A program made the translations under genes and the position numbers. Below, in pieces: positions 2,689 to 12,782 of a stretch of DNA of 64,000 nucleotides (its first letter is position 1; the number at the start of each line of letters is the position of its first letter). The notes under the pieces were generated by a model that saw only the letters and a list, made by a program, of their open reading frames with translations, ran no database searches and was not told the origin of the DNA. Source of the DNA: Dethiosulfovibrio faecalis (GTDB taxonomy: Bacteria > Synergistota > Synergistia > Synergistales > Dethiosulfovibrionaceae); the NCBI RefSeq assembly GCF_021568795.1, contig NZ_JAKGUE010000002.1, positions 1-64,000 on the forward strand, written 5' to 3'.

Positions 2689-2848
2689 GTTTGTAATCAT
2701 GGTGGGGAGATTGTAGAATTATGAGGACGAGAACCGGTAGAAAGAGCTTGACCATTCTTGATTTTATCGTGATCGTACAATAAACCGTACAACGCAAGAC
2801 TTGATTAACCCTGTTATCCTTTGTGGTCGCTGGGATACCTTATTTTTG

Positions 2849-2871
2849 TTCGAATCCAGGCGGGGCAGCCA
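2849..2871 (+). repeat. tRNA 3'-end fragment, probable prophage attachment site (attR)
   Basis: The stretch begins with a T-loop (TTCGAATCC), continues with what would be the 3' strand of a T-stem and acceptor stem (AGGCGGGGCA), and ends G-CCA. The bases upstream do not fold as the rest of a tRNA. This is what integration into a tRNA 3' end leaves at the far end of a prophage. An acceptor starting U1-A72 with G73 would fit tRNA-Gln, but that is a guess. Confidence 0.55.
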
Positions 2872-2996
2872 ATGCCTGTAGTTGTAAGGGTTGAGGACAC
2901 TTGGTGAAGTTGGAGAAACCTTCCAGCAACGACGGATTTACATAATAGGCAGTAGGTTAGTTATGGTCAGTTGTGACATGGTTTGTGATGTTAGGT

Positions 2997-3042
2997 CCCA
3001 TCTTCCCCCTGTGGTGACAGGGTTGAGGTGGGGCTTTTGTTT
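2997..3042 (+). terminator. Terminator-like hairpin after the attachment site
   Basis: CCCATCTTCCCCCTGT pairs with ACAGGGTTGAGGTGGG (about 14 of 16 positions, two mismatches, some G-T), loop GGTG, followed by CTTTTGTTT. It may be the original terminator of the tRNA gene whose 3' end is the attachment site. Confidence 0.55.
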
Positions 3043-3106: not shown

Positions 3107-3136
3107 TCATCGTAATTTTTATGGACAATCGCTACC

Positions 3137-3286
3137 GAAGATGAAAGGCATCGGGATGTGGAAGTCCGGTGAAAATCCGGCACAGCCCCGCTACTGTAAT
3201 CATGACGAAATCACATGGAGCCACTGCAAGGCCTGGTCTTGTGGGAAGGCGTGAGAGTAGGACGATTGAGAGTCAGGATACCGCCC
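3137..3286 (+). promoter_or_regulatory. Cobalamin (B12) riboswitch
   Basis: The conserved core is readable. A P3-type stem-loop TCCGG TGAAAA TCCGG is followed by CACAGCCCCGCTACTGT; GCCACTG lies near 3229 and GGGAAGGC near 3243. The B12 box is AGTCAGGATACCGCC at about 3271-3285. This aptamer binds adenosyl- or other cobalamins and usually represses downstream genes. Its 3' end runs into a terminator hairpin, so control is probably by premature termination. It lies upstream of the ABC transporter genes that follow. Confidence 0.95.
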
Positions 3287-3332
3287 CTTGCCTTTAACGG
3301 TTTTCCGTACGAGGGTATGGGGGCTTTTTTTT
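3283..3332 (+). terminator. Riboswitch expression platform (intrinsic terminator)
   Basis: Outer stem GCCCC with GGGGC and inner stem ACGG TTTT CCGT, followed by an eight-T run and a further T-rich stretch. It shares bases with the end of the B12 box, so aptamer and terminator folding are linked. Confidence 0.8.
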
Positions 3333-9958: not shown

Positions 9959-11497
9959 ATGATGTCGTCTTCTAAAAAGTTGAAGATAGCCTGCGTTCAA
10001 CTGAGATCTAGAGACGTGGAGGAAAGGCAAGAGTCTTTAAGAGAAGCCCTTGAGGGCATAAGGGAAGCCTCTGGGTTTGGTGTTCAGATGGTGGTCCTTC
10101 CCGAGGCTGTTTTTCCGGGATATGTGTTGGATCGCTGGTCCGAGGATCCTGACTCTCCGGATGAATCCCGAAGGGCTCTGGAAAGCTTTAGGGAATCCGC
10201 CATGGGAAACGGAGTCTATCTGGCCGTGGGGTTGGCACTTCACAAAAACGGAAGATGGATAAACGGAGCGGTCCTCATCGATCCGGATGGGAATATTATT
10301 CTGGAGGAAGGCAAGCGTTTTCTGTGGCATTTCGACGATCGATGGTTCGGAAAATCTCACTCCTATGATTTGGCCGATACCCCTTGGGGCAAGATCGGTT
10401 TGTCGATATGTGCGGATGCCAGAAATCCCGAGGTGCTTCGTAACCTCTCTCGTAAAGGAGCAGATCTGGTATTGGATCTTGCCAACCTCACATCTTCTGG
10501 AAAAGATGCTGATTTGCTTTCAAATCAGCAGGTAAATTTCATGCTACCGGTAAGGGCTTTTGAGAACTGTGTCTGGATAGCTATGGCCAACAAATCCGGA
10601 ATGGAAAACCGATCGGTCGTCTACTGTGGAAGATCCGGCATATACGATCCTTTAGGTCGCTCCGTAGCCGCCCTGGGATCTAAGGATCCAGGCGTGCTGG
10701 TGGAGCAAATCGACCTGTCCAATCGACCTAGCATGGTCCCACTCAAAGAGGGTATCTGTGCCCCCCTGATCGAGAAAAAAAAGCCTCATTTCCAGGGGGA
10801 AGCCACTGTGGTTATGGTCTCTTTAGCTCAATTGGACTGGGATTCGCTGGTCGTATTGAACAGGGTAAAAAGCTTTGTCCGCCAAGCTTGGCTTCAGAAA
10901 GCCGATTTGTTGGTCCTGTCTCCATTGTCAGACTCAGACGAGATGGAGTCCTTGGCGATGGAGCTTTTGCTGGATCTATCTCGGTCATATGAAAATATGT
11001 GGATCGTCTTTGCTAGAGAAAACGGTCCTAAAGGGCCGATCTCGTGGTCGATCAGAGATGGCCAGGTCTGTAATGTCTCTCTCGGTACCCACGGCCATGG
11101 TCTGGGAGATACGGTTCCCGTGATTCGAACCGACATAGGAGCCTGGGGAATCTCCATAGGAGAGGACGGTTACGTTCCGGAGGTTTCCAGAATACAGGCG
11201 ATCAAGGGGGCGGAGATGCTCGTTTGGTTTGCCCCCGATGGTCCTATGACGGAGCATCTGGCCAGAAGCAGGGCGGCGGAGAATAAGTTGTTCGTGGTTG
11301 CCGCAGCTTCTGCGTCCGTAGGAGGAAGCCTTATCGCGTCTCCCGACGGAGCCATTTTATCCCAAGCTTTTGTAGGAGAAGATCAGATGATATCGGCACT
11401 ATGTCCTCTGTGTTTATCCAGAGAAAAATCGGTAGTTCCCGGTACGGACGTGCTTTTAGACAGGTCTCCCGAGGATAATATCTTCAGGAACCGGTAG
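9959..11497 (+). CDS. Two-domain carbon-nitrogen hydrolase (nitrilase superfamily), second domain degenerate
   Basis: 512 residues with a strong GAGGAGGTG ribosome site. Residues about 8-260 form a nitrilase-superfamily domain with the full catalytic triad: E49 (VLPEAV), K119 (EGKRFLW) and C151 (LSICADAR). Residues about 280-490 look like a second copy of the fold (QLDWDSL, ADLLVLSPLS, GAWGISIGEDG), but the Glu position is Ser and the Cys position is Gly, so it should be inactive. Such enzymes hydrolyse amides or nitriles. No terminator separates it from the MATE gene (48-base gap), so it is probably part of the cobalamin-regulated unit. Substrate unknown. Confidence 0.82.
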   Translation: MMSSSKKLKIACVQLRSRDVEERQESLREALEGIREASGFGVQMVVLPEAVFPGYVLDRWSEDPDSPDESRRALESFRESAMGNGVYLAVGLALHKNGRWINGAVLIDPDGNIILEEGKRFLWHFDDRWFGKSHSYDLADTPWGKIGLSICADARNPEVLRNLSRKGADLVLDLANLTSSGKDADLLSNQQVNFMLPVRAFENCVWIAMANKSGMENRSVVYCGRSGIYDPLGRSVAALGSKDPGVLVEQIDLSNRPSMVPLKEGICAPLIEKKKPHFQGEATVVMVSLAQLDWDSLVVLNRVKSFVRQAWLQKADLLVLSPLSDSDEMESLAMELLLDLSRSYENMWIVFARENGPKGPISWSIRDGQVCNVSLGTHGHGLGDTVPVIRTDIGAWGISIGEDGYVPEVSRIQAIKGAEMLVWFAPDGPMTEHLARSRAAENKLFVVAAASASVGGSLIASPDGAILSQAFVGEDQMISALCPLCLSREKSVVPGTDVLLDRSPEDNIFRNR

Positions 11498-11672
11498 CCA
11501 TAGCCACCATAGGGCTCCTTTTTTCGAAGAACCCCGAGTTCTCTCGTTCCAGAATCCTGTCCGCCATAGCCTGTGCCGTGAGCACGGTTCGGCGGACCTT
11601 TTTTTTATGGTTGATGTCGTATCCTATGAAATGCCCATTTTCTACTATCAGTTTTATGGTCTCTCTGTCCAT
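11484..11672 (-). CDS. Unknown 62-residue protein, divergent from the LexA-like repressor
   Basis: The start is firmly set: on the minus strand GGAGGTGAT lies five bases before ATG, and a near-perfect promoter (TTGACA, 17 bases, TAATAT) lies upstream. The product is basic in the middle (NHKKKVRRT) with a hydrophobic C-terminus and no membrane helix. I recognise no domain. Its 3' end overlaps the end of the nitrilase gene by 14 bases, tail to tail. The promoter is overlapped by one arm of the palindrome at 11729-11768, so it is probably repressed by the neighbouring S24-type repressor and induced when that protein cleaves itself. Function unknown. Confidence 0.72.
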   Translation of the reverse strand: MDRETIKLIVENGHFIGYDINHKKKVRRTVLTAQAMADRILERENSGFFEKRSPMVAMATGS

Positions 11673-11701
11673 GGGATCACCTCCAGATATCTTTTATACA
11701 G

Positions 11702-11730
11702 ATATTACGATGTCTTTTTCATCGTGTCAA
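11702..11730 (-). promoter_or_regulatory. Promoter of the 62-residue gene
   Basis: On the minus strand: TTGACA (11730-11725), exactly 17 bases, TAATAT (11707-11702). The left arm of the palindrome overlaps the -35 element by two bases. Confidence 0.8.
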
Positions 11731-11768
11731 CCGATATTTTGGGAGTGGGGTTGTATAAAATATCGGTT
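11729..11768. promoter_or_regulatory. Perfect 12-bp inverted repeat, probable repressor operator
   Basis: AACCGATATTTT at 11729-11740 and AAAATATCGGTT at 11757-11768, spacer 16 bases. The left arm touches the -35 of the minus-strand promoter; the right arm lies between the -35 and -10 of the plus-strand promoter. It is the natural binding site for the HTH/S24 repressor encoded next door, which would then repress both itself and the small gene. Binding is inferred. Confidence 0.72.
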
Positions 11769-11779
11769 TGATAGATAAT
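11751..11779 (+). promoter_or_regulatory. Promoter of the LexA-like repressor gene
   Basis: TTGTAT, 17 bases, GATAAT. Transcription would start near 11786, about 25 bases before the ATG. The right operator arm fills the spacer, consistent with autorepression. Confidence 0.6.
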
Positions 11780-11810
11780 GGTATTAGATATGAGCCTTGG
11801 AGGTGATGCT

Positions 11811-12515
11811 ATGACTCGAGGGGAGAGATTACGTCGGACCAGAAAGGATCAAGGTCTTACTCAGACCGAGCTGGCTAGGTTGTCAGGGGTAAAACAAAAC
11901 ACCGTAAGTCAGGTCGAAAACGATAGAATAGGTCTCTCCATAGAGACTTGGGAAAGTCTGGCCTCTGTTTTGGGGTGTTCCGTAGGCTATCTCGTAAGTG
12001 GAGAGGGAGATCAAAAAAGTTTCGGTCACAGGGGGTCCGCCGGAAAACTCTCGTTTTCCCAGTGGATAGATGTCCCCATTCTCGACGATTCCGCTGTAGC
12101 CTGTGCTGGAAACGGCATAGGCGGAATGGCCGAGGTCTATGCCGGTGCGGAGGACTCTATAATGCTTCCCGGCGAGCTATTGGGAACCGTATCTGTGAAC
12201 GCCGATCGTCGTCCCTTTATAATCACGGTAGAGGGAGATAGCATGGAAGAGGCCGGAATCTTGGATGGAAGTCAAGTCGTGGTAAATCCGGAGGAAGAGG
12301 TGTACGATGGCGACCCCGCTTTGGTAAGCTTCGGACGAAATGGCGATTGGGCGGTCAAATGGGTCTATTGGCAGAGAAACGGAGCGGCGGAGATACGATC
12401 GTCCTCCTTGAGATATCCTCCCAGATCCTTTTCCGTGGAAGACATAGACGAAGGGCTATTCCAGATAATAGGTAAGGTTGTCAGGACGTTGGGTAAACCT
12501 AAAAGAGGGGCTTAA
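11811..12515 (+). CDS. LexA/CI-type self-cleaving transcriptional repressor (HTH_XRE plus S24 peptidase)
   Basis: 234 residues from ATG 11811 (GGAGGTGAT upstream); an in-frame TTG-type start at 11778 would lie on the promoter -10 and is rejected. Residues 5-60 are an XRE helix-turn-helix (LTQTELARLSGVKQNTVSQV). Residues about 85-225 are an S24 peptidase: scissile A99-G100 (ACAGNG), nucleophile S144 (EGDSM) and Lys K183 (WAVKW), spaced as in LexA. It should cleave itself when RecA filaments form, relieving repression. XRE-type DNA binding is closer to phage CI-like repressors than to canonical LexA, so a prophage origin or an SOS-linked host switch are both possible. Confidence 0.88.
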   Translation: MTRGERLRRTRKDQGLTQTELARLSGVKQNTVSQVENDRIGLSIETWESLASVLGCSVGYLVSGEGDQKSFGHRGSAGKLSFSQWIDVPILDDSAVACAGNGIGGMAEVYAGAEDSIMLPGELLGTVSVNADRRPFIITVEGDSMEEAGILDGSQVVVNPEEEVYDGDPALVSFGRNGDWAVKWVYWQRNGAAEIRSSSLRYPPRSFSVEDIDEGLFQIIGKVVRTLGKPKRGA

Positions 12516-12640: not shown

Positions 12641-12683
12641 AAAACAGTAGCCGTCCGGGTGTTGGACTCTCCCGGACGGCTAC
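12641..12683 (-). terminator. Terminator of the tRNA-Ser gene
   Basis: On the minus strand GTAGCCGTCCGGG pairs with CCCGGACGGCTAC (13 bp), followed by TGTTTT. It lies directly downstream of the tRNA. Confidence 0.88.
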
Positions 12684-12694
12684 GAATATGCTAT

Positions 12695-12782
12695 TGGCGG
12701 AGGGTGTGAGATTCGAACTCACGGAAGCTTGCGCCTCAACGGTTTTCAAGACCGCCACCTTCGACCGCTCGGTCAACCCTCC
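12695..12782 (-). tRNA. tRNA-Ser (anticodon UGA)
   Basis: 88 bases with encoded CCA. The acceptor strands are GGAGGGT and ACCCTCC, with discriminator G. The anticodon loop reads CTTGAAA, giving UGA. It has the long variable arm of serine tRNAs and a T-loop TTCGAAT. It reads UCA codons (and possibly others of the UCN box). Confidence 0.95.

Follow-up and report, generated by a model that had tools for sequence, protein, structure and literature searches.

Described switches and the Dethiosulfovibrio locus

FddR of Francisella is judged to be a co-opted phage repressor, with a core network in which it represses its own gene along with a divergently placed one whose function is unknown; it binds to its own promoter, as shown by EMSA, and its gene is induced by ciprofloxacin (PNAS Nexus 2026, PMC13148647). 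AlpR/AlpA of Pseudomonas aeruginosa involves a repressor that cleaves itself and acts chiefly on a single regulator gene, with AlpA serving as antiterminator of a lysis operon (PMC7969949). With IrvR/irvA of Streptococcus mutans, a LexA-like S24 repressor has one adjacent primary target, with IrvR being RecA-independent and irvA acting partly via its mRNA (PMC7101444). From these latter two systems it is seen that an S24 switch with one target can drive either lysis or surface remodelling (PMC7969949, PMC7101444).

The locus considered here is found in Dethiosulfovibrio faecalis, within a window, i.e., the whole stretch of DNA analysed, of 64,000 nucleotides. The kind of switch is already known, here with an orphan effector. 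FddR and the Dethiosulfovibrio repressor are alike in being genus-wide, phage-origin S24 regulators where there is no LexA-run SOS response and, as read from its DNA, the Dethiosulfovibrio locus also resembles FddR in its palindromic site within its own promoter, its divergent partner of unknown function, and its apparently tiny network. That is, the genus-wide S24 regulator, divergent partner, and own operator repeat of an FddR-type module were all found in Dethiosulfovibrio. The two nonetheless differ in that the FddR operator, GTG-N11-CAC, is unlike the Dethiosulfovibrio arms, the lineages are unrelated, and some Francisella species carry a dinB module whereas no Y-family polymerase was found in Dethiosulfovibrio. 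FddR, in addition, has EMSA and induction data. The likeness to AlpR is that of a self-cleaving-type repressor, as judged by sequence, with one apparent main target, though unlike AlpA the Dethiosulfovibrio small protein has no family and no lysis genes adjoin its gene. To IrvR the likeness is that of a LexA-like S24 protein with a single adjacent primary target, predicted in the case of the window repressor. Phage CI/Cro switches, having phrog_4 repressors, share with the locus repressor kinship, divergent promoters, and an operator in between, but the locus lacks both a Cro-like HTH gene and flanking phage genes, and its partner is not an HTH protein.

Gene order runs from an amidase to the small gene, the 138-bp gap which serves as shared control region, the divergent repressor, a tRNA-Ser, and then a CoA-binding protein gene:

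9959-11497, + strand: amidase gene
11484-11672, - strand: small gene, 62 codons
11811-12515, + strand: S24 repressor gene
12653-12690: GC-rich hairpin between repressor and tRNA-Ser, a possible terminator judging from sequence and alignment, also present in G001 and G005
12695-12782, - strand: tRNA-Ser(TGA), intact, 180 bp past the repressor stop

Strong Shine-Dalgarno sequences are seen with both the small gene and the repressor. No phage genes flank the repressor in the window, its neighbours being the amidase, tRNA-Ser, and CoA-binding genes.

A phage-type repressor outside of any prophage

The repressor is a CI/LexA-type S24 protein of 234 aa. Its start is best set at 11811, behind GGAGGTGAT, and an alternative start at 11778 was passed over in favour of this one. 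Both the N-terminal HTH and the C-terminal S24 domain of the CI/LexA-like family were found, i.e., HTH_3 at residues 7-61 (Pfam, 7e-15) and the Peptidase_S24 self-cleavage domain at residues 105-224 (Pfam, 1e-13), each over cut-off. The cleavage set, placed by motif (the repressor structure model having a pLDDT of 31), consists of the scissile pair A99-G100 along with S144 and K183, all of which are invariant in the aligned orthologues as well as in a 53%-identical paralogue. By analogy, this repressor would be expected to undergo RecA-stimulated self-cleavage. Its best phage family is phrog_4 (transcriptional repressor; 1.5e-34, full length), and against the NCBIfam LexA profile (TIGR00498) it reaches 31 bits, below the curated cut-off of 110.95 bits.

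The 53%-identical paralogue resides in one of the genome's prophages (contig C10), where it faces a Cro-like HTH gene, as does a third S24 gene at C2:302078 (L064:4734-5849, G000:C2). This third gene encodes a prophage-type repressor and shares its contig with the window, lying at about 302 kb. S24 homologues in other Synergistota genera likewise are mostly prophage CI repressors facing a Cro-like HTH gene. At the window locus, a divergent Cro-like HTH gene is absent, the Cro slot opposite the repressor being occupied by the small orphan gene, and the locus is outside of any prophage. Because homologues as well as the genome's own paralogues display the CI/Cro layout, the window repressor is therefore of phage type, yet outside a prophage, i.e., it appears to be a captured phage CI-type repressor that now would serve as a host regulator. 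One relative's copy of the locus does lie in an IMG/VR contig, a placement we read as reflecting an adjacent insertion.

From a different perspective, the repressor might mainly silence related incoming phages, as immunity or superinfection control, with the small protein then a passenger or antirepressor. The 53% identical prophage repressor in the same genome is what such a role would predict, and island insertions do adjoin the locus in relatives. The window operator, however, does not occur in the prophages that this genome carries, and the small gene is conserved, is paired with the repressor every time, and is not found in phage records, making this reading improbable.

The control region

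The 138-bp gap contains an inverted repeat, AACCGATATTTT / AAAATATCGGTT, whose arms match perfectly over 12 bp and lie at 11729-11740 / 11757-11768 with a 16-bp spacer. A repeat of 12 bp arose in only 5 of 20,000 dinucleotide shuffles of this gap. The elements of the region are as follows:

11674-11685, - strand: Shine-Dalgarno GGAGGTGATC of the small gene, from sequence
11684-11695, - strand, and 11697-11708, + strand: two arm-like sites picked out by the arm matrix, a possible second, weaker operator
11702-11730, - strand: small-gene promoter, TTGACA-17-TAATAT, near-consensus
11729-11740, + strand: predicted left operator arm, AACCGATATTTT, with 2-bp overlap (11729-11730) with the small-gene -35
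11751-11779, + strand: repressor promoter, TTGTAT-17-GATAAT, from sequence and alignment
11757-11768, - strand: predicted right operator arm, AACCGATATTTT on this strand, within the 17-bp spacer of the repressor promoter

An earlier, sequence-only reading of this DNA had pointed to the locus, and upon re-reading of the sequence all of its elements sit where it had placed them. Its ‘perfect 12-bp palindrome’ is indeed perfect over 12 bp but is an interrupted inverted repeat rather than a palindrome. An arm does touch the -35 of the near-consensus small-gene promoter, as had been claimed, while the claim that the arms fill the spacer of the repressor promoter holds for the right arm, which lies wholly inside. 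The full A-G / Ser / Lys cleavage set was also correctly recognised. Layout and sequence together support part of what that reading proposed, namely a putative S24 switch that is divergent and autoregulated and has a single small partner.

The small-gene -35 is TTGACA in five of six species and TTGAAA in G006, and ATACAGATATTA, across the -10, does not vary among the six in the alignment. The two additional arm-like sites cover this -10 along with the small gene's transcription start. Ranked by the arm matrix, they come third and fourth in five of the six genomes; in G006 the + strand site ranks third and the - strand site is not recovered. As the -10 itself constrains the same bases, a second operator here is suggestive, that is, a lead rather than a result.

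The arm pair is unique, being present once in the 2.67-Mb genome. With a looser core pattern, only this site is found in the window genome and in G001, with an unrelated hairpin-like match in G006. One-mismatch half-sites elsewhere are, all but one, within open frames, none of these having a good partner, and the exception, near a contig end, is without a good partner as well; these searches would miss operators elsewhere in the genome that are degenerate. In the more diverged species, arms occupy the same position but are weaker and altered, having changed from AACCGATA/TATCGGTT to AAGGGATA/TATCCTTT in G003 and G004, with G006 having an A-rich version. There the inverted repeat is short and is not significant on its own. 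The distance from GATA to TATC core is 24, 21, or 22 bp depending on species, and because arm spacing varies in this manner, it is more likely that each arm binds its own dimer than that a single rigid complex spans both.

The small protein

The small protein has 62 residues, of which residues 1-42 are a conserved core and the remainder a variable tail. Differences from diverged orthologues are concentrated at the third position of codons (e.g., 11/5/23 in 42 codons), a pattern which rules out an antisense-ORF artefact, and in comparisons between diverged species the core displays a pN of 0.18-0.27 with synonymous sites saturated. The small gene therefore is a real gene, one on which purifying selection acts in six genomes of Dethiosulfovibrio.

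That the small protein matches nothing known, as had been suggested, is borne out: nothing significant was found in Pfam, PHROGs, NCBIfam, PADLOC, or among PDB sequences. Outside of the genus nothing significant was found by phylum-wide profile search or among viral contigs, phages, plasmids, and genome contigs, the last by a scan which may omit near relatives and which confirmed none. Its sole viral-contig match is to one IMG/VR contig, of the same genus. There is no HTH match, nor a sequence match to the AlpA family (Pfam, NCBIfam). A degenerate Cro was considered and rejected, as profile comparison with the Cro-like protein from the prophage of this genome gave no match. An AlphaFold2 model, for which two sequences were input, is beta-beta-beta-alpha but of low confidence (pLDDT 64), and a fold search with this model returned no PDB or viral fold match below an E of 0.1. 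Likeness to an integrase arm-binding or AP2 domain was backed by no search.

The protein is basic and hydrophilic (pI 9.7, range 9.7-10.5; GRAVY about -0.5) and, for that reason, the earlier suggestion of a ‘toxin-like factor’ fares poorly if taken to mean a TisB-like membrane toxin, which is unlikely. Binding of nucleic acid or of a partner is the more likely role. Tentatively, the effector is most likely a nucleic-acid-binding regulator or host modulator that sits in the slot which Cro holds in phages and AlpA in alp.

Conservation of the pair

Repressor orthologues are found in seven of seven genomes of the genus, at 73-97% identity, with that of G002 a fragment (residues 74-234, 85% identical) whose contig ends before the gap. 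Repressor dN/dS is about 0.05 where measurable; between diverged species, pN is 0.11-0.19 and synonymous sites are saturated. The small gene is present in all six near-complete genomes, i.e., those with a readable gap and thus not including G002, and is divergent from the repressor every time, so that the pairing is indeed conserved in relatives. Among 188 Synergistota genomes the small gene is found in 6, all Dethiosulfovibrio. A partial second copy in G003 was dismissed as assembly overlap, the contig end matching the end of the gene-bearing contig.

The amidase of G006 is broken (L062:8346-9192), only residues 1-128 and 332-499 being recognisable. It is a decayed remnant with approximately 200 residues gone from its middle, and beside it both repressor and small gene are intact. 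As judged from these sequences, the gene pair is kept by selection rather than decaying. Of the notion of a ‘relic of a phage switch’, then, the phage origin of the repressor stands and the decay does not, given purifying selection, genus-wide retention, and intactness beside a decayed amidase.

LexA and the size of the network

LexA over the curated cut-off was found in 0 of 122 Synergistota genomes, all at least 90% complete, using a profile which, as a control, gave scores above the cut-off for 6 of 14 named genomes. The window orthologue is the only LexA-profile match in four of the six near-complete Dethiosulfovibrio genomes. A RecA gene is present.

The repressor might accordingly be viewed as a LexA replacement, one that also runs repair genes via degenerate operators, with the small gene the nearest of several targets. 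In addition to the absence from the phylum of LexA over cut-off, related circumstances make this conceivable: in another genus, g11, a related S24 regulator is divergent from a UmuC-like polymerase gene (L021, G044), and phage-like repressors of Bacteroidetes run larger SOS networks, as cited in PMC13148647. The operator pair, however, occurs once, with other half-sites in coding frames or unpaired, and the genus has no Y-family polymerase to control. We consider this reading rather unlikely. Matches related to the g11 arrangement are seen also in G030, G037, and G049, and that S24/UmuC-like pair is a possible LexA substitute in its own Synergistota lineage.

The proposed circuit

The best account, and one we hold to be fairly probable, is that of a captured phage repressor switching one small gene upon DNA damage, the locus probably being a minimal switch for DNA damage in bacteria without standard LexA. 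Repressor dimers, we infer, would bind the arms of the shared operator, thereby blocking the near-consensus small-gene promoter while also limiting the repressor's own. Upon DNA damage, RecA filaments would form and stimulate cleavage at A99-G100. Loss of repression would then permit a burst of the small basic protein, lasting until repressor re-accumulates. The circuit apparently would have one target besides the repressor itself.

The trigger instead might be a stress other than DNA damage, resulting in self-cleavage or repressor loss. There is precedent for this with IrvR in Streptococcus mutans (PMC7101444), and an S24 domain by itself is no proof of RecA dependence. The window repressor, however, possesses the full cleavage set and is close to prophage CI repressors, such that a trigger independent of DNA damage seems very improbable. 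Prophage CI repressors as a class respond to RecA.

Going further than the captured-repressor account, the small protein could found a genus-specific family of DNA-damage-induced effectors, with this one gene being the whole S24-controlled SOS response of a lineage lacking both LexA and Y-family polymerase; we view this as possible though on the doubtful side. On the captured-repressor account, the locus would supply an independent case, in a phylum other than that of Francisella, of the route put forward for the latter, that is, a captured phage repressor plus one divergent target where LexA is missing.

Surroundings of the locus

In relatives an island is found directly 3' of the repressor (L058:4063-9250 in G001, also L059 and L057), its boundary fused to sequence which in the window is the start of the tRNA-Ser. 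The island of G001 contains IrrE-like, DUF4917, GHKL ATPase, Vsr, and cytosine methylase genes. By appearance, the tRNA-Ser is where a defence or modification island integrates. In G003 and G004 the tRNA-Ser is 5-7 kb away from the repressor, with other genes intervening. Elsewhere in the window, at 2749-3040, approximately 120-200 bp are 79-83% identical to locus-adjacent sequence in G001, G005, and G004, with similar sequence located near tRNA-Gln in G001 and G005. A cobalamin riboswitch (RF00174, 83 bits) is found at 3113-3302 on the + strand.
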